A DNA stretch of 64,000 nucleotides, taken from contig NC_079239.1 in the NCBI RefSeq assembly GCF_027921745.1, positions 2,569,501 to 2,633,500 on the forward strand, read 5' to 3'. The notes beneath the pieces were generated by a model that searched no databases, was not told the DNA's origin, and was given only the letters and a program-made list of their open reading frames with translations. Every line of letters starts with the position of its first letter. Position 1 is the stretch's first letter. Positions 9,803-44,866 of this stretch are shown piece by piece. This DNA comes from Schizosaccharomyces osmophilus. Its lineage: Eukaryota; Ascomycota; Schizosaccharomycetes; Schizosaccharomycetales; Schizosaccharomycetaceae. The position numbers and the translations under genes were made by a program.

Positions 9803-9901
9803 TGCTCCCGGCGAGGATCGAACTCGCGTTTTTCACGTAACACACCTCCATGGAGGAGTATCATATAAGCATGAGGCCTTAACCAGCTTGGCCACGGGAG
9901 C
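9803..9901 (-). tRNA. tRNA-Ile (anticodon UAU) with a 25-nt intron
   Basis: A complete cloverleaf can be drawn on the minus strand. The acceptor stem GCTCCCG/CGGGAGC has discriminator A. The D stem is GCC/GGC, the anticodon stem TCATG/CGTGA (one G-T pair), the variable loop is 5 nt, and the T arm is GCGAG-TTCGATC-CTCGC. The anticodon TAT is at 9867-9865. The intron lies at the canonical 37/38 site (9863-9839) and contains the palindrome CCTCCATGGAGG. A T6 terminator follows directly, and TATATA stands about 31-36 nt upstream, typical of fission yeast tRNA genes. Confidence 0.93.
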
Positions 9902-23747: not shown

Positions 23748-24687
23748 ATGGTGAGTGACAAGGATGGAGGTTGTTGGGAAAAGACCCAATGCGTAAACAA
23801 GAAGAATGATAACTAATAATTAGTCGTACAACGGAATTGGATTGCAAACTCCTCGTGGGTCAGGGACAAATGGTTATGTGATGCGTAATTTGTCGAACGT
23901 AAAGCGATATAACAATACTGGAACCAAAAAGATGCACGAGTATGATGAAAAGACGCTAACGAAACGAAGAATCGACCCAGAAATAAGCAAACATGAGCGT
24001 CGGCGGCAAATTGAATCGAAAGTGTTGTTGTTTCGAGAGGAATTGCTAGCACATACGGAGCCCCAACAGACTCGGTATCCCGAGGAAGAGGATATAGAGA
24101 GAAAAGAGGTAGAAGAAGAAGAAAGAGGAAAAAGAGATGAAAATATTGAAGCGTTAGTGCAGGAATATCGTGAAAAATTGTGGAAAGAATCCGAAGAAGA
24201 AGATCGGTACCATGAGAAAAACAACTTCGAGTCCCTGATGCACGATGACGATGAGGTTTCAGGTTCCCGCGGTCGGAATGACTACCATGGACACGAAAGG
24301 AAGAATCAAAAATACAAAGGAAGACTAGAAAGTAGAAGAGATATAAGTCCTATGTCAGCCTCAAGAGGATCGCAGAATCGAAGACATGGAGATTCGTATT
24401 ATCGAGGAAGAGATCGATATGTGGACGATGTGGAAAGGGACTACGAACCGGACAGGCGTTCTAGTCGATCGGAACGTCCAAAGAGGGAAGATTACGATAG
24501 CTACTCATCGTATCGACCTCGTCGCCATGCTCGTTCACGTTCCAAATCTCGATCTCCTTCACCAAGGAATCAATTGGACACAAGAGAGGAAAGAAATTAT
24601 CACTTTCGCCGACCTTCCTTTCAAAACCGAGAAAGATCACCACCTGAGCGAGGAGAACTTCAAGAGTCCAACTCTCCTATTGAATGA
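23748..24687 (+). CDS. cwf21: Spliceosomal protein Cwf21 (Cwc21/SRm300-like)
   Basis: Component of the Cdc5/NineTeen-associated spliceosome, near the catalytic RNA core with Prp8. Exon 1 (23748..23750) is the start codon alone. The 73-nt intron (GTGAGT, ACTAATA branch, TTAG) is followed by exon 2 (23824..24687). The 288-residue product begins MSYNGIGLQTPRGSGTNGYV, the conserved Cwc21 N-terminus, which fixes the splice. The cwf21 domain follows (about 55-115: RRIDPEISKHERRRQIESKV onward through LVQEYREKLW). The rest is Arg/Ser/Tyr-rich, with RS dipeptides near the end. It lies 0.3 kb from the U6 gene. Corresponds to SPAC4A8.09c. Confidence 0.93.
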
Positions 24688-25017
24688 AGCAGATAAAACA
24701 ACCATTTTTATTAAATAATATTTCTTTATAGTTGTTGTTTCACCACCATGTTTAATTGACAAAAGTAACTTACATCTTGTAAAGGATTGCTTCTCTATGG
24801 AATCTCGGTATGGTACCCAAGTACATTTTCCTTTACGTTCTTTCACAATCAACTGATTTAGGATCGCCAATTCTTCTTTTTTTTCTATAAGTTTTCGCTT
24901 CTGCTTTGTCATCCCAAAGACTTATTGTTCTTCTACTCCATTTGCAAGAAACTTCATTTTTGTCCTTCTTTACATACATTTTCTTCGCTATAAATACAGT
25001 TATTTATTTAAACAAAT
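24688..25017. other. Intergenic region cwf21-U6 with a doubtful minus-strand ORF
   Basis: Contains the U6 TATA box. On the minus strand an ATG at 24912 opens a K/E-rich frame (MTKQKRKLIEKKEELAILNQ...), with GTAAGT near 24770. If spliced to the AG at about 24723 it would meet a stop at once, giving about 46 residues. It would start about 100 bp from U6 and overlap the cwf21 3' end. I cannot identify it and do not call it a gene. Confidence 0.3.
24989..24996 (+). promoter_or_regulatory. TATA box of the U6 snRNA gene
   Basis: TATAAATA at -29 relative to the U6 5' end, the spacing used for TFIIIB placement at yeast U6 genes. Confidence 0.75.
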
Positions 25018-25168
25018 GATCTTCGGATCACTTTGGTCAAATTGAAACGATACAGAGAAGATTGTAAGTACACCCCATACGACCAAGGTTCGAGTCATAC
25101 TAACTCGTTGTTTAGAGCATGGCCCCTGCACAAGGATGACACTGCGACATTGAGAGAAAACCCATTTT
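25018..25168 (+). ncRNA. snu6: U6 spliceosomal snRNA, interrupted by an mRNA-type intron
   Basis: Exon 1 (25018..25063) starts GATCTTCGGATCACTTTGG and includes the ACAGAG box at 25052-25057. The intron (25064..25115, 52 nt) has GTAAGT, a perfect TACTAAC at 25098-25104 and TTTAG. Exon 2 (25116..about 25168) begins exactly with the catalytic AGC triad and runs through GGATGACACTGCGACATTG to CCCATTTT. The intron thus separates the two catalytic elements of U6. GGTTCGAGTC inside the intron (25087-25096) is a Pol III B box, so intron DNA doubles as promoter. A run of nine T (25165-25173) terminates Pol III. The same arrangement is known in S. pombe. Confidence 0.97.
25087..25096 (+). promoter_or_regulatory. 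Pol III B box inside the U6 intron
   Basis: GGTTCGAGTC fits the tRNA B-box consensus GGTTCGANTC. It lies between the donor and the branch point. TFIIIC binding is expected from S. pombe work. Confidence 0.85.
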
Positions 25169-25173
25169 TTTTT
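25165..25173 (+). terminator. Pol III terminator of U6
   Basis: Run of nine T at the end of U6; the RNA 3' oligo-U comes from its first residues. Confidence 0.8.
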
Positions 25174-25661
25174 ATTTTTCTACCCAAAAACATCGATTGA
25201 CACTTGCTGTTTATCAAATTGATTCGTAAAAACTTGTTATTTGAACAAGCAATTGCTCATTCGTTTTTTGCTATTTTTGACTACTTTTAACATCTGTTTA
25301 CCTAGATTCCTGTAAACAAACTGGATTGTGCATTTTTGGGATACTATTATTTTCGTTTCTTGAAAATCGTTTTGCAGGTTGGTTCATCTTTTTGAAAGAT
25401 TCGTGCTCGTTCAGTTTCGTCCGTGTTGAAAACGATTGTTTTCGTATTTATAAGTTTCTGTATTTGGATCACTTTTTAAATAGGAATCAAAACTTTTTTT
25501 AGTTATTTTATGGATTTCTTTAGCTAAATTCAATTGTATACTCGTGGAAAGCCCTTTATTATCTAGACATAAACCATTGACATCCATTATTAACTAGTCT
25601 TTTCTTTCTTTCTTCATTGGCTTTTTTTGTTTCCTCATCGTATATCCCCCATTTCTTTTGC
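25174..25661. other. Intergenic region U6-vrs2
   Basis: T-rich spacer and vrs2 promoter. No other feature recognised. Confidence 0.4.
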
Positions 25662-28600
25662 ATGCGTTTCCGTTCCCTGTTCCACGTTCATCATAAAACC
25701 ACTGGTTTATGGAAGCCGTATCCATTTTGTCGCTGCTTCAACCTTCAAGCTTCGTTTCAACCTGTACGTTTCATAAGAACATTTTTAGGATCCTTTGCTA
25801 ATTCAATTCCTTCCTTTAGGTTCACATTGAAACAGCCTGGCATGAGCTACAGCAAAATCTTTCTCTTGTTGAGCATTCGCCTTCCAAGGTGAACATAAAA
25901 AGCGATGGTCCTCTCTACCCCATCCTTCTTCCGCCGCCTAATATCACAGGAAAGTTACACATTGGACACGCGCTCACTATTACCATCCAAGATGCTCTAG
26001 CAAGATATTATTCCATGAATGGCTATCAAGTATCTTTCCGCCCAGGAACCGATCATGCCGGAATTGCAACTCAGTCAGCTGTGGAAAAGTTTTTGAATAA
26101 AAAAGGCATCACAAAATCTAACCTTACTGAATCCGAATTCATGCTTCAAGTTCGAGATTGGGAACATCAGTTTCAGTATCGGATTCGAAAACAGCTTGAA
26201 GCATTTGGTGCTCTATTTGATTGGAAAAACGAATTTTATACACTAGATAAAAAAAGGTCTCGCTCGGTCTCTAAAGCATTTGTTGAATTATTTGATTCCG
26301 GTTACATATATCGAGCTAATCGTTTTGTCAATTGGTGTCCTAAATTGGCAAGTGCTATTTCGGAAATGGAAGTGGATTCGCATATGATTTCAGATCCTGT
26401 CACAAAATCAATTAATGGAGTTGCAGTTGATTTTGGATATATGTATCAAATCGCCTATCCATTAGTCGACTCTTGTGATGAGTCCATCATTGTTTCGACT
26501 ACTCGCCCTGAAACAGTTTTTGGGGACCGTGCCATTGCTGTTAACCCACAAGACCAGAAATATCAACGTTTTATTGGAAATTTTGTACGACATCCACTTC
26601 GTCCTGGCCTTGTTCTTCCTATCGTGGCAGACGACGCTGTTGATCCAAATTTCTACACTGGAGCTTTAAAAATTACTCCAAGTCATAGCTCCGTTGATTT
26701 CGATATCGCTAAAAGACATGGCATACCTTTAGCTACTATCTTGGATCAAAAAGGCCGTTTAGTCAATTGTTCAAATGAACTGGATGGAATGGATCGCTTA
26801 TGTGCGCGTCCCAAAATAATTCAAATGTTGAAAGACGTTGAATCTTTAGTAAAAAAAATTCCTCACTCTTGCGTTTTATCTGTTTGTTCTCGAACCGGGG
26901 ATGTAATTGAACCTATTATGGTCCCTCAGTGGTATTTGTCCGTCGATTTTCTTCGAAAACGACTCTTGAGTATGACTGAGGAACAAAACTTAAAGTTCTT
27001 TCCTTCTTCAACTAAAGATGATTGGTATCGATGGCTGGAAACCATGCAAGATTGGTGTCTTTCTCGTCAAATCGCCTGGGGTCATCGGATTCCTGTTTGG
27101 AAATATGAAACCACTAAGGGAGAGCAATGGGTAGCAGCTGAATCCCAAGAAGAAGCAGTGAAGAAGGCCAATGGAGCTTCTTTGGAGCAAGACTCTGATG
27201 TTTTAGATACTTGGTTCTCTTCTTCTTTACTTCCTTTGTCTTCATTTGGTTGGCCTTGTGAGAAGAATGTACCCGTGCTGCCATTCATAGAAAGTGGTAA
27301 AGACATCATATTTTTTTGGATAGCAAAAATGGCTTTGATGTGTTCTTATTTTACAAATGTTCTTCCCTTCCGAGAAGTTATTTTGCATCCTCTCATTCGG
27401 GACTCGGAAGGGCGAAAGATGTCGAAATCTTTAGGAAATGTCATTGACCCAATGGATATTATACATGGCGTCTCTTTGGAGAAACTGGAAGAGAAGCTTT
27501 TAGAAGGAAGCTTTTCAAAGTCTGAGATGGGTAAATCCTTGGCTCATTTAAAAAAGTCTTTTCCAAATGGTATTCGTGCCCAGGGATTAGACGCTTTGCG
27601 TTTTGGTCTTTGTCTTTCTTTGCATCATAATCAAAGGATTTTATTAGACATGGAAAGCTTCTCCAATTCGTACAGGTTTTTGTCAAAAATCTGGAACTTA
27701 ACGCGATATTTCAATCAGTATAAGTCTACTTTGGTCACTAATGATACGCCGACTGAGGTAGCCGATATTTTCCAAACAATTAAAGTCGCGTTTGATTATC
27801 GACTACAGCATACTGTTAAAAGTTGTCGTGTAAACTTTAAAAATCGATCTCTATTCAAGGTTTCAGAAGCTTTAGAAAAGTTTCTATTAAACGATTTGTC
27901 AGTCGAATTTGTTGATATTACACGTCCTATTTTAAAGAACCATGACAGCCAAGATCTTGTTTTGCAGTATTTCAGTCATCTCATGAACGTGTTTTTGCGG
28001 TTGGCTCATCCGGTTATACCATGCTTAACAGACGTATGTGAAAACAAGCCATTTTCGCTTGCACTTACTAATGATAAATTTAGGTATTGTGGGATCGTTT
28101 GGACTACATGCCAAAGGGACCTTTGCACAATAATATCTATCCCCAGGTAGACGAAGGAAAACTGGACTCCGAAGAGGCAGCCCGTGCTAATGAAGTTGTA
28201 AAAGAAGCTATGAAAATCATTTACTACTTACGAAGCTTAAAGGTAAATAAGCAGTTATCGCAAAACCAAAAATCACCTGTTTATATTATTACACGCACAG
28301 GAAGCTTGGACAAGTTTTGCGAAATAATCAGATCCTTAACAGGATACCAAGTAAAGGTACGTATCAGATTGCCCTATGTACAGTAACTAACTTATAGATG
28401 CAATTGCAAAACGATCTTGGAAGTTCTACGACTACTTTTGTTCAGTTTATGGTTTCCAGAGACACTACGCTAATGGTACCAGACGAATATATGCATCGTA
28501 ATACCCCAAAGTTGGAGAGAAGCGTAGAAGAATTACAAAAGAAGGTGAAGAAACTTGATTTTGTAACTACATCTGCTGGTTATACAAAAGCTCCAATGGC

Positions 28601-33372: not shown

Positions 33373-36300
33373 ATGTCGTATTTATCAAGAGATGATTCCG
33401 GCTATGCAAAGCACTCTATCGAAAACATTGTGAATGGAAAAACAGTTGAGAACGCCGCAAGAAAGGCGTCCTTTGATGAACGAACCTGGGTTTGGATATC
33501 TGACCCTGAGGATGTCTACTTAAGGGCATGGATCGAAGAAAAACTGAATTCAAACTCCCAATACAAAGTTCGATTAGAGAAAGATGGAAGCGAACGAATT
33601 GTAGATTCAAAGAGTACGGGAGAAGTGAACCCTCCGAAGTTTGACATGGTAAACGATATGGCCGAGTTAACATGTCTCAATGAACCTTCAGTTATTCACA
33701 ACCTAATTCAACGGTACGAACGAGACTTAATTTACACATACTCTGGTCTTTTCTTAGTAGCCGTGAATCCATATCGGTCATTACCCATTTACGGCGATGA
33801 TATAGTTAAGAAGTATCATGCAAAACAATTTCCTGAAGTCAAACCACACATCTTTCGTGTAGCAGATATTGCTTATAGGAATCTGCTGGAGAGGGAGCAA
33901 GATCAATCAATTTTGGTAACTGGTGAATCAGGTGCTGGTAAGACCGAAACCACAAAGAAAGTTATTCAATATCTTACTGCAATTACTGGTACTTCTAGCA
34001 ATGATTCTCAACTTTTAGAAAACAAAATTTTAGATACCAATCCCGTTTTGGAAGCATTTGGTAATGCCCAAACTGTGCGAAACAATAACTCCTCTCGCTT
34101 TGGAAAGTTTATACGAATTGAGTTTTCTATAGATGGTAGCATAGTTGGTGCTAACTTGGACTGGTACTTGCTTGAGAAATCTCGAGTTACTAATCCATCT
34201 CCTAACGAACGAAATTATCACATTTTTTATCAATTATTGCGTGGTAGTGATGATAATTTACTACGAGAATTTTTTCTTGAACGTTCCGTTGACAAGTACA
34301 CCTATTTGAAAAATTGTGCGAAATTTGTTTCAGGAGTGGATGATGCTTCGGAATTCCGTCAAGTCTGTGCCGGACTTACTACACTTGGATTTAGTGCCGA
34401 AGACACAAAGCAGCTTTATACTGCAATCGCTGCTGTCTTACATCTGGGAAATATAGAGGTTGCCTCTGATCGTGCTGGCCAGGCACGGTTCCCATCTTTG
34501 ACACACATTGATCAGCTCTGTCATCTGTTAGGTATACCACCTGAAGCTTTTATAAATGCAGTTTTGCATCCAAAAACAAAGGCAGGGAGAGAATGGATTG
34601 TTAATGCACGTACAAAGGAGCAGGTTCTACATACTCTTCAATCACTCGCAAAGAGTTTGTATGAAAGAAATTTTGCATTCTTAGTTGATAAGCTAAATCG
34701 GACAATGTATCAGACTCAGAATGATAACAAGTACTTTATAGGCGTCTTAGATATTGCGGGATTCGAAATCTTTGCGCACAATAGCTTTGAGCAACTCTGT
34801 ATTAATTACACGAACGAAAAGCTTCAACAGTTTTTTAATCATTACATGTTCATTCTGGAGCAAGAAGAATATTCTCAAGAAAAAATTGAGTGGGATTTCG
34901 TTGATTATGGTAATGACTTGCAGCCAACCATAGATGTAATCGAAAAGTCAGAACCGATTGGCATCCTTTCTTGCTTAGACGAAGATTGTGTTATGCCAAT
35001 GACAACAGACAATACCTTTACGGAGAAGCTACATTTGCTTTTGAAAGGAAAGTCTGACATTTACCATCCTAAAAGGTTCTCGTCAGAAGGATTTGTTTTG
35101 CGACATTATGCCGGTAATGTTGTTTATTCTACCGAAGGATGGTTGGAAAAGAATAAAGATCCTCTTAACTCTAACCTCGCAAATTTAATATCCCAATCTT
35201 CAAATATGCATATATCTTCCCTTTTTTCTGATTACTCTTCTGGGAACACTTTGAATGGTGATCATTATGAAAAGAAGGGTATTTTCCGTACCGTTTCTCA
35301 AAGACACAGACGACATCTTAATACTCTAATGAAGCAACTAGAAGCTACACAACCGCATTTCGTCCGTTGTATTATTCCAAATAGCATAAAGAAGCCTAAA
35401 TTTATTGAGAAAGGACTAGTTTTAAACCAGCTACGATGTAATGGTGTTTTGGAAGGAATTCGAATTGCCCAGACTGGGTTTCCTAACAAGCTGTTGTACA
35501 CAGAGTTTCGATCTAGATACGGGATTCTATCAAATACACTAGAAAGGGGTTATGTAGAAGCAAAAAAGGCTACTGTGGCTATTATAAAGGAGTTGGATTT
35601 ATCTAGAAGCGTCTATAGACTAGGTAAAACCAAAGTTTTTTTCAAGGCTAATGTGCTTGGGTTTCTCGAAGATCGAAGAAATGCGATGCTGCGAAATATT
35701 TTTAAAGCCTTTTCTTCTACAATAAGGGGATTTCTTGTACGACGTCGCCTTTATCGGTTAAACCATCGCCAGGACGCTGCTATTGTTTTACAGCATAACT
35801 TAAGAGAATTGAATGTTTTAGGGAAGCACCCTTGGTGGCATTTATTTTTAAAATTGAAACCTTTATTGGGGACAACTCAAACCGATGAATATCTACGTCG
35901 TAAAGATGCACTCATCAATAACCTTAGAATTCAATTAGAAAAAGCAGAATTGGTTTCTGTTGAACTAGAGGCTAATCGTCAGCAAATTTCAAGCATTTCG
36001 AAGGAGCTGAGTGAGGAACAGGCGGTTTCGAAAGAAAAAGAGATTCTAGTTGAGCGAGCCAATTCTAGAGTTGAAGTTATAAATGAGCGACTTTCCGATT
36101 TGGTAGAACAATTGCACATAAGTCATGATAAATATACTTCATTGTACAATGAAAAGAAGGAGACTGACGAGCAATTTGAGAAATCCAAATCCTTAACGAA
36201 TCATCTTCAAGGATTAATTTCGACTTTGCAAGAAAAGTTGGATTCTTCTGTTGCAGCAAATGAAGAAACGAAAAGAAAATACAAAGAGATGGAATCATCT

Positions 36301-39300
36301 CATATTAATTTACAGGCAGATTATGAGCACTATGCACAGCTGTTAGATTCTCAACGAAGTACTTTAGCGGAAGAGCAAACGAAACTTGACAGGTTAAAAC
36401 AAAGTAAAAACAAGCTAGAGGAAGAAATTCTTTTTAAAGGCAATTTACACAAAGCAGAAGTGGACGAATATAAGTCTGAAAACTCTAGTCTGAAAAACCA
36501 ATGCAATATCTATGAATCTCAAATTGCTAGCCTGGTATCTGATTATTCTAGGACTGAATCCGAGTTGAATAAAAAAGAATCTGAAATCTTAATGTTTCAA
36601 ACGGAACTTGCTGAATACAGAGATCAACTCGCTAGTTCTTTAAAAAAACGTGCTTCAGATGCTCTCGGAGAGGAGGAGGCATTGTCCCTTGACAGTCAAG
36701 AAAGTACATATTCGTCTTCTTCAACTACTCTTTCGATTTTAAAAGATGTTCAAGAATTAAAGACGTTGCATTCTAAAGAAGCAGTACAACTTTCTGGTAG
36801 GATAAAAGATGTTACTCAACTGCTCGAGCAGAGCATGGCTACCGAAGATAAGCTGCGCTTAAAAAATAATGAGCTGTCAGATATTGTTGAAGCTTTGAAA
36901 TATCAAATGCAAGAACAGGACAGGGAGATTCTTGAAGCAAATGCTGCTAATGTGAATCTTCAAAAGACCAATGATGTCTTGGAAAAAAATGCAACAGACT
37001 TTATTGACTTGCAAAGTGTAAAAACGCGCTATGAATGTAAAGTATCGGAATTATTCTCGCAGTTACATAAAGAACGAAAAAGGGCTGAACAACTAAAGAC
37101 GAAGCTTGAATCTTTCGGTAATAATGAAAAGGAAAATTATCATCACGGGATTTCAAAAGAAAACGAACCAATGAAAGGTACAAGAAAGGAAAGTCTTCGA
37201 AGGATTACTGATTTACTTTCTTCAGCAATGAATTCTTCAACTTTTGAAAAGTACCATCTGGAAATGCTTCTTAATGCATTACAGCAACAAATTTCAGAGT
37301 TTGACTTAAGTCTTCCTCAAAAAAGCCTGCTTTCTTCTAATTTAGAATCTTTAAAAAGAAGATCGTCAGTAGGAAGGAACATTGAACCTGCTTTGTCGCC
37401 TTCTAAGACCAACAATGGCGATTCCTCAAACTTGACGAAAATGCTTCAAGGTTCTCCTAGCAAGCGCTCTGGAAAAATGGAGGCCCTTATACGAAACTTT
37501 GATCAGAATAATACTTCCTTTTTATTTGAACCTAATAAAGAAGAGGGAAACCAGAAATCTATGAATCTTCGCTCAGAAATTATGAAACTGAATTTTAATT
37601 TAGAAGAAGCAAAACGAAATGGAATTTTAGATTCTAGCACCGTTGATAGTGGTGTTACTGCCGCAATGCAGTCTTTATTGGAAGAAAATCAAGCGCTGAA
37701 AGCTACGGCGACGACGAATGTAAGCATTGAAAGTTCACCTGGCGAGCAAGAACAATTATTAAATGAAGTTCCCGCTCGATTACAAGGTGATTTAAGGAGG
37801 CACTTTGATCAGCTGCGCCAATCCAAAGAGACATTGTTAAAACTGCACAACATTACTGAGGACAAGCTACATTCGGCTGATCTAGCACTTAAAGAAACAA
37901 CAAAAGAAAGAGACCATTTGCTGCGTAACTTCTCTACACCGACCAAACCTTCCTTTATTGTCAACGATGAAACAGAAGATCTTGGGTTTGACAGCTCAGA
38001 TGGCCTTGATGAACAGAAGCTAGAAGAAGTTAATCTTTTACGGATGAGAAAATTGGAAAGCGCTCTTTCGAAATATAGGAATCGTCTCGGTGAGTTTCAG
38101 TTGCGCCATGAAAACTCTGAGTCATCTATCCACAAACTAGAACGTGCTAAGATGGGTCTCTCGAATAAATTAGCGGAAAGAGAAACCTACATAGCTGAAC
38201 TGCTTGGCACTCGAAAGAAGATGGAGATGGCGCTATTGGAGTCAAATGCCAAGCAAAAAGAGTTTGAAATACTCTATTATGAAAGAAATAATGATTTGTT
38301 GGAAATAAGGCAACACAGAGAAAAGTTGATGAAACAAATTGACGAATTTAACGCAGTACGTGTTCAAGATCTAGAAGAGCGTGAACGGAAAGACGAATTA
38401 TTATTCCAGCGTTACCAAAAGGAGCTCAACGGATTTAAGGTACAGCTAGAAGAAGAACGAGAGAAAAATTTGCGGATACGGCAAAACAACCGACATGTGC
38501 ATTTAGAAGTCGGAGAGTTAAGAACGAAGGTTGATGGACTAATTCTGGAAAAAACAGGTTTAGTGAAAGAAACTTCACGTTTACAATCCGAAATGCAATC
38601 GATGTATAAGGTAAAGAACAATTCTTCGGCGGCACATCGAACAGCGCAATCACAATTGCTTAATCTGACGTCGCAACTGCAAGAAATTCGAGAAGTGAAT
38701 GAGCACCTTCGTTCCGAACAAAACAATTTGCTTAATGAAAAACGTAGTCTTGAACAGAAAGTGCAGGAAGTGACAAGTCAATTGAACAATTCTAAATTCT
38801 CCGAATACTCCCCAGAACTAGCTGATACTGAGAAGGAAATGGCTGATTTGCGGGCAAGCATGGAGCAGAAAGATGAACTGTTAACGTCACTAGTAGACAG
38901 AATGAAGCAAATGGAGTTCTTTGCCTCTGAAACTCAAAAAGATAGCAACCAACACCGTGAAGAAAATTTGAATCTACATCGGCAAACTGGAGTTTTAGAA
39001 AATGAAAAGAAAGAGCTGGAGCTCCGATTATTTGATTTGGATGCTAAGAGCTACCCATTGAGTTCATCGAAAGATGTTCGAATGCTTCAAAAACAAATTG
39101 CAGAATTAGAGAGCTCTGTTGCGGACTCGGACAAGGAACGCATTAAGGGACTCGATGAATGCAGGCTCCGAGATCGTAGTATTCGTCATCTAGAAGCTCG
39201 TGTTCGAAAGTTTGATGAAGAAAAGCAAAATCTGTCGGCATCCATTTCTCATCTGGAAGATCGGAATAGTCTTTTGTATAATCAACTAGAAGATACAAAA

Positions 39301-39489
39301 GCATCTGAAACGCATTACAAATTAGCTTTGCAAAGAGCAGAGCACGAGGTTCAAGAGGAACGAGAAAACCTTGCGAATCTGGAACGAGACCTAGAAAAAT
39401 ATCGACTCATACTTGAAGGTCAACGAGCTAGGCGTTTAGACAGTCGATTGTCAATGCGTTCTAGTACAAAGTCTCCGTCAATGCATTGA
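33373..39489 (+). CDS. myp2: Myosin II heavy chain Myp2 (Myo3)
   Basis: Second conventional type II myosin of fission yeast, working in the contractile ring, mainly under stress and in late constriction. Single exon, 2038 residues from MSYLSRDD. An SH3-like N-terminal region (WVWISDPEDVYLRAWI) precedes the motor: P-loop GESGAGKT (184-191), switch I NNSSRFGKF, switch II DIAGFEIF, the actin-binding loop region RHLNTLMKQLEATQPHFVRCIIPN and the converter. One IQ-like segment (AFSSTIRGFLVRRRLYRL) ends the head at about 800. The tail is mostly coiled coil, but it is broken near 1230-1400 by Ser/Pro/Asn-rich non-helical sequence (SPSKTNNGDSSN). Such breaks fit the single-headed model of S. pombe Myp2. 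Corresponds to SPAC4A8.05c. Confidence 0.95.
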   Translation: MSYLSRDDSGYAKHSIENIVNGKTVENAARKASFDERTWVWISDPEDVYLRAWIEEKLNSNSQYKVRLEKDGSERIVDSKSTGEVNPPKFDMVNDMAELTCLNEPSVIHNLIQRYERDLIYTYSGLFLVAVNPYRSLPIYGDDIVKKYHAKQFPEVKPHIFRVADIAYRNLLEREQDQSILVTGESGAGKTETTKKVIQYLTAITGTSSNDSQLLENKILDTNPVLEAFGNAQTVRNNNSSRFGKFIRIEFSIDGSIVGANLDWYLLEKSRVTNPSPNERNYHIFYQLLRGSDDNLLREFFLERSVDKYTYLKNCAKFVSGVDDASEFRQVCAGLTTLGFSAEDTKQLYTAIAAVLHLGNIEVASDRAGQARFPSLTHIDQLCHLLGIPPEAFINAVLHPKTKAGREWIVNARTKEQVLHTLQSLAKSLYERNFAFLVDKLNRTMYQTQNDNKYFIGVLDIAGFEIFAHNSFEQLCINYTNEKLQQFFNHYMFILEQEEYSQEKIEWDFVDYGNDLQPTIDVIEKSEPIGILSCLDEDCVMPMTTDNTFTEKLHLLLKGKSDIYHPKRFSSEGFVLRHYAGNVVYSTEGWLEKNKDPLNSNLANLISQSSNMHISSLFSDYSSGNTLNGDHYEKKGIFRTVSQRHRRHLNTLMKQLEATQPHFVRCIIPNSIKKPKFIEKGLVLNQLRCNGVLEGIRIAQTGFPNKLLYTEFRSRYGILSNTLERGYVEAKKATVAIIKELDLSRSVYRLGKTKVFFKANVLGFLEDRRNAMLRNIFKAFSSTIRGFLVRRRLYRLNHRQDAAIVLQHNLRELNVLGKHPWWHLFLKLKPLLGTTQTDEYLRRKDALINNLRIQLEKAELVSVELEANRQQISSISKELSEEQAVSKEKEILVERANSRVEVINERLSDLVEQLHISHDKYTSLYNEKKETDEQFEKSKSLTNHLQGLISTLQEKLDSSVAANEETKRKYKEMESSHINLQADYEHYAQLLDSQRSTLAEEQTKLDRLKQSKNKLEEEILFKGNLHKAEVDEYKSENSSLKNQCNIYESQIASLVSDYSRTESELNKKESEILMFQTELAEYRDQLASSLKKRASDALGEEEALSLDSQESTYSSSSTTLSILKDVQELKTLHSKEAVQLSGRIKDVTQLLEQSMATEDKLRLKNNELSDIVEALKYQMQEQDREILEANAANVNLQKTNDVLEKNATDFIDLQSVKTRYECKVSELFSQLHKERKRAEQLKTKLESFGNNEKENYHHGISKENEPMKGTRKESLRRITDLLSSAMNSSTFEKYHLEMLLNALQQQISEFDLSLPQKSLLSSNLESLKRRSSVGRNIEPALSPSKTNNGDSSNLTKMLQGSPSKRSGKMEALIRNFDQNNTSFLFEPNKEEGNQKSMNLRSEIMKLNFNLEEAKRNGILDSSTVDSGVTAAMQSLLEENQALKATATTNVSIESSPGEQEQLLNEVPARLQGDLRRHFDQLRQSKETLLKLHNITEDKLHSADLALKETTKERDHLLRNFSTPTKPSFIVNDETEDLGFDSSDGLDEQKLEEVNLLRMRKLESALSKYRNRLGEFQLRHENSESSIHKLERAKMGLSNKLAERETYIAELLGTRKKMEMALLESNAKQKEFEILYYERNNDLLEIRQHREKLMKQIDEFNAVRVQDLEERERKDELLFQRYQKELNGFKVQLEEEREKNLRIRQNNRHVHLEVGELRTKVDGLILEKTGLVKETSRLQSEMQSMYKVKNNSSAAHRTAQSQLLNLTSQLQEIREVNEHLRSEQNNLLNEKRSLEQKVQEVTSQLNNSKFSEYSPELADTEKEMADLRASMEQKDELLTSLVDRMKQMEFFASETQKDSNQHREENLNLHRQTGVLENEKKELELRLFDLDAKSYPLSSSKDVRMLQKQIAELESSVADSDKERIKGLDECRLRDRSIRHLEARVRKFDEEKQNLSASISHLEDRNSLLYNQLEDTKASETHYKLALQRAEHEVQEERENLANLERDLEKYRLILEGQRARRLDSRLSMRSSTKSPSMH

Positions 39490-44794: not shown

Positions 44795-44866
44795 TCCGTC
44801 ATGGTCCAGTGGCTAGGATTCATCGCTCTCACCGATGCGGCGGGGGTTCGATTCCCCCTGACGGAA
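44795..44866 (+). tRNA. tRNA-Glu (anticodon CUC)
   Basis: Full cloverleaf with acceptor stem TCCGTCA/TGACGGA and discriminator A. The D arm contains GGTCCAGTGGCTAGGAT. The anticodon stem CATCG/CGATG carries loop CTCTCAC, giving anticodon CTC at 44828-44830. The T arm is GGGGGTTCGATTCCCCC. No intron. A T5 terminator lies at 44870-44874. Confidence 0.96.

Follow-up and report, generated by a model that had tools for sequence, protein, structure and literature searches.

A split U6 RNA gene in Schizosaccharomyces osmophilus with a B-box match inside its intron

In a window of 64,000 nucleotides of the fission yeast Schizosaccharomyces osmophilus (contig NC_079239.1, positions 2,569,501 to 2,633,500), the gene for U6 spliceosomal RNA is split by a 52-nucleotide (nt) intron of the precursor messenger RNA (pre-mRNA) type, and this intron contains a match to the B box of genes transcribed by RNA polymerase III (Pol III). 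An earlier reading of the letters of the window, referred to here as the sequence-only reading, had reported the arrangement, and our analysis confirms it. The layout has been known from the fission-yeast literature since 1990, so that it is confirmed here in a further species, not discovered; the result adds one more fission-yeast species to the known case of a spliceosomal RNA that is itself spliced, and whose intron holds a probable promoter element. From the order and quality of the motifs we consider it very likely that this fission-yeast snu6 gene is transcribed by Pol III by way of a TATA box, an A box and the intronic B box, and that its intron is removed by the spliceosome.

The U6 gene and its intron

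The Rfam model of U6 spliceosomal RNA (RF00026) matched positions 25017-25171 of the forward (+) strand, on which all features of the gene lie. The match scored 75.1 bits, well above the gathering score of 44, and covered the whole model (1-105 of 105); the ACAGAG box and the AGC triad were both present. The gene thus belongs to the U6 family, as had been proposed from the letters. No other match was found between 23500 and 26500 with permissive Rfam filters and E-values up to 1. Across the genome (11,412,266 bases in three contigs), one U6 match was obtained at E ≤ 0.001, with 47 of 1,117 first-look candidates scored, so that at the sensitivity of this search the gene is present in a single copy.

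Rfam and a direct motif search together placed the gene at 25018-25173, with its 5′ end at 25018. The limits of the sequence-only reading, 25018-25168, were correct except that they omitted the last five T of the terminator. Exon 1 (25018-25063, 46 nt) carries the 5′ stem-loop and the ACAGAG box (25052-25057), and exon 2 (25116-25164) starts with the AGC triad (25116-25118); the exons were delimited with RF00026, and both catalytic elements were also located by motif search. Mature U6 probably ends a few bases within the run of T that follows exon 2.

The sole interruption of the RF00026 alignment is an insertion of 52 nt, whose boundaries were fixed by motif search at 25064-25115. The intron begins 6 nt past ACAGAG, ends directly before the AGC triad and sits between GATT and AGC, so the gene is indeed split between its two catalytic elements. 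Removal of the intron yields a continuous U6 consensus, and, read from the sequence, the splice junction is unique: only the joining of exon ...GATT to AGC... restores the consensus. Motif search located a donor GTAAGT (25064-25069), a branch motif TACTAAC (25098-25104), with the presumed branch A at 25103, 12 nt before the final intron base, and an acceptor AG (25114-25115) within a terminal TTTAG. The full set of pre-mRNA-type signals claimed by the sequence-only reading was therefore recovered. As the site of interruption was set by the U6 alignment, it is independent of the splice motifs. Assuming independent base composition, the joint chance of a donor at the exact start of the gap, an AG at its exact end and a TACTAAC 4-20 nt before that end is about 3e-8. 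Like the intron-containing U6 genes of fission yeasts, the gene has a single mRNA-type intron close to the catalytic nucleotides and a B-box consensus inside that intron.

Promoter elements and related genes

Motif search identified a TATA box, TATAAATA, at 24989-24996, whose first base lies 29 nt upstream of the U6 5′ end (-29), and a Pol III terminator of nine T at 25165-25173. The A-box consensus is TRGYNNANNNG, and TGGTCAAATTG (25034-25044), which begins at +17 inside exon 1, matches it exactly. The B box GGTTCGAGTCA was located at 25087-25097 by motif search and scored with a matrix built from transfer RNA (tRNA) genes of this genome, described below; it lies within the intron, between donor and branch, as had been read from the letters, and abuts the branch motif. 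A box, B box and T-run terminator occur in the same order as in tRNA genes, which places U6 among the Pol III genes with A and B boxes. According to parts of PMC11346459 and PMC1796607, the U6 gene of Saccharomyces cerevisiae, SNR6, likewise has an upstream TATA box, an intragenic A box and a B box, but its B box follows the terminator at a distance of about 120 nt, whereas that of the present gene lies in the intron.

For comparison with tRNA genes of the same genome we used 60 of the 63 listed matches, which were all that had been scored among 858 first-look candidates and so do not represent every tRNA gene; the loci left out were C3:1140010, C3:1152465 and C3:1162198. The 60 loci comprised 20 distinct sequences, and the B-box matrix was built from these and weights the free eighth position too. 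Over all eleven positions the U6 B box scored 18.46, and 13 of the 20 distinct tRNA B boxes scored no higher. This held for all 20 when the first ten positions were used, and for 10 of the 20 when the free eighth position was ignored. By these comparisons the B box of the U6 intron is typical of the tRNA-type B boxes of the genome. No other site in the window reaches its score under the matrix. An intronless tRNA-Glu gene (anticodon ctc) at 44795-44866 (+) has its B box, GGTTCGATTCC, at 44845; this box falls below the U6 score because the matrix weights the free eighth position, and once that position is ignored it scores 19.1, against 17.0 for U6. U6 has a distance of 53 from A box to B box, and the 60 tRNA loci have distances of 43, 44 or 46. 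A TATA[AT][AT] motif starts between -40 and -24 of the mature 5′ end in 26 of these loci, and at least five T are found within 60 bases downstream in every one of them.

The intronic B box is the only good one near the gene. Between 24701 and 25699 the best score outside the intron site was 4.9 against 18.5, and between 24018 and 26173 it was 9.7, for a site at 24224 that falls in the coding gene upstream. This site and the one that follows it in rank in the larger interval (5.1) both lie upstream of U6. No B box of the SNR6 type, beyond the terminator, was found in 24018-26173, where the best downstream score was 5.0, at 25800, against 18.5. The joined U6 exons contained no B-box score above 1.1. 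Since spliced U6 has no good B box and no second one was seen within about 1 kb, deletion of exactly the intron would eliminate the one good site for transcription factor TFIIIC observed in this region. The claim of the sequence-only reading that intron loss removes promoter sequence is supported in this one respect; a promoter function of the B box is plausible.

Folding of the RNA was also considered. Excess structure was seen neither in the intron alone (z = 0.88; 162 of 200 shuffles folded at least as well) nor in the precursor 25018-25165 (z = 0.33; 124 of 200). When G-U pairs are allowed, exon 1 and the intron could form a 9-bp helix between ACUUUGGUC (25030-25038) and GACCAAGGU (25081-25089), both on the + strand, a helix that would overlap the A box as well as the first bases of the B box. 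This helix was equalled in 70 of 1000 base-shuffled introns and is not significant, and the longest Watson-Crick run between exon 1 and the intron, 6 bp, is not significant either (equalled in 337 of 1000).

A paper by Frendewey et al. in Nucleic Acids Research in 1990, cited as reference [17] of PMC10484740, reportedly places, in its title, a B-box match in the U6 introns of Schizosaccharomyces. Its abstract is said to describe introns of about 50 bp, located at the same position of U6 in five Schizosaccharomyces strains, in which the B-box match comes just before the branch consensus. This arrangement is the one found here, and the central point of the sequence-only reading was thus already prior art. 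The interspecies comparison of snu6 which that reading proposed was, reportedly, at least partly made in 1990 across several Schizosaccharomyces strains, and Tani and Ohshima, also cited in PMC10484740, are said to have described the U6 gene of S. pombe and its intron in 1989. In S. pombe U6 the B-box match reportedly lies inside the intron, as here; that the layout was known in S. pombe had been said from the letters and agrees with the titles cited, which make it prior art since 1990. The further suggestion, that conservation seen here speaks for selection on the intron as promoter, finds no support in this window, which represents a single genome; the genome search took in no relatives of it. 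Canzler et al. (2016), cited in PMC5832005, reportedly state in their title that insertion of an intron into U6 happened several times in fungi; judged by that title, those other fungal U6 genes resemble this one in being interrupted by an intron.

A scan of the genome_contigs collection for an ACAGAG box followed by a B box in this order gave 0 matches, and a literature text scan for guessed intron letters returned 0 papers. A 16-mer scan of viral_contigs gave 36 loci, of which 4 passed a loose filter; these proved to be stretches of phage DNA, nearly identical to one another, with no U6 sequence beyond the match, and were rejected. A part of the S. osmophilus genome paper (PMC10085805) states that small nuclear RNA genes were predicted with Infernal and S. 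pombe queries, so this U6 gene has very probably already been annotated in S. osmophilus. The paper also describes how RNA-seq reads of the species were produced.

Transcription, splicing and retention of the intron

We propose that Pol III, together with TFIIIB and TFIIIC, would make a U6 precursor from the TATA box at -29, that TFIIIC bound at the A box of exon 1 and the B box of the intron would help transcription, and that transcription would stop at the nine T. The single 52-nt pre-mRNA-type intron of this precursor would be removed by the spliceosome, in which case U6 would be spliced by particles already containing U6. The placing of the B box in the intron would follow from the lack of any B-box-like sequence in spliced U6. 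We consider this account, as a whole, very likely.

Several observations weigh against this proposal. In vitro, SNR6 can be transcribed independently of TFIIIC by virtue of a TATA-like element, as described in a part of PMC11346459, and the B box might therefore be dispensable. Compared with the tRNA genes measured, U6 has an A-to-B spacing that is larger by 7-10 bp. The pattern GGTTCGANTC is found at 180 sites on both strands of the 11.4-Mb genome, tRNA genes included, and has a real background, since the reversed pattern is found at 80. A donor with suitably spaced CTAAC is hardly enriched by itself (1,068 matches in the genome, with 893 for the reversed control), and donor plus branch was rejected as stand-alone evidence; the combination donor-GGTTCGA-CTAAC occurs once in the genome, in the U6 intron, and its reversed control also occurs once. 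By themselves, the donor-branch and donor-B-box-branch patterns outnumber their reversed controls hardly or not at all. The case rests on the presence of these motifs at the exact gap in U6.

As to why the intron persists, a need for the promoter and plain inertia are both possible. It is plausible that use of the B box helps to retain the intron. We put forward more tentatively, as a proposition that falls somewhat short of even, that the intron cannot be lost by simple precise deletion, being the sole place of a required TFIIIC site in a gene whose spliced product has no B box; the B box and the branch motif that it abuts would then join promoter and splicing signal in a single unit of 18 nt (25087-25104). 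If true, the retention of a spliceosomal intron would be explained by transcription instead of splicing. Alternatively, the intron may be kept by a low rate of intron loss or by feedback through splicing, and not as a promoter, even though the B box aids transcription. One gene in one genome gives no measure of the rate of loss and does not separate promoter-driven retention from inertia, which favours leaving room for this explanation; against it, the gene without its intron would have no good B box within about 1 kb, so that some cost of losing the intron is expected if TFIIIC is needed. We regard retention by inertia or feedback as a serious possibility, though a rather doubtful one.

It could also be that the gene and its intron are real and the B-box match is unused, with the TATA box and TFIIIB sufficing and the motif present by chance or inheritance. 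The TATA box at -29 fits this idea, as do the TFIIIC-independent transcription of SNR6 in vitro and the implication, in the same part of PMC11346459, that fission yeast relies on contacts between TATA-binding protein and TATA more than budding yeast does. However, the chance of GGTTCGANTC starting in the U6 intron on the + strand, taken from its genome rate, is about 3e-4, an A box that matches exactly is found 53 bp upstream, and the title of Frendewey et al. (1990) puts the match in Schizosaccharomyces U6 introns. An unused B box is therefore unlikely. That the interrupted gene is a pseudogene with a working copy elsewhere is most improbable, since nothing was found in its favour, the genome search gave one U6 match at E ≤ 0.001, and the U6 elements, promoter elements and terminator examined are all intact.

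Neighbouring genes

The next long open reading frame upstream of U6, at 23881-24687 on the same (+) strand, encodes a protein with a cwf21 domain, which marks the family of a spliceosome subunit. The domain match (Pfam PF08312) scored 37.2 bits, and the adjoining positions of a splicing protein gene and the U6 gene may be a coincidence. Downstream, the product of the next long open reading frame (26015-28150, +) is a class I tRNA synthetase that weakly matches a leucyl-type editing domain; as the match starts at position 58 of the profile, the first part of the synthetase may lie upstream of the listed start of the reading frame. Further along, a protein of 2,038 amino acids (33373-39489, +) strongly matched heavy chains of class II myosins in a PDB search. 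On the opposite strand, a tRNA gene at 9803-9901 (-), which ARAGORN missed under bacterial settings, was matched by Rfam with 49.6 bits and has an insertion after the anticodon region; by our reading it probably has the anticodon TAT and a short intron.
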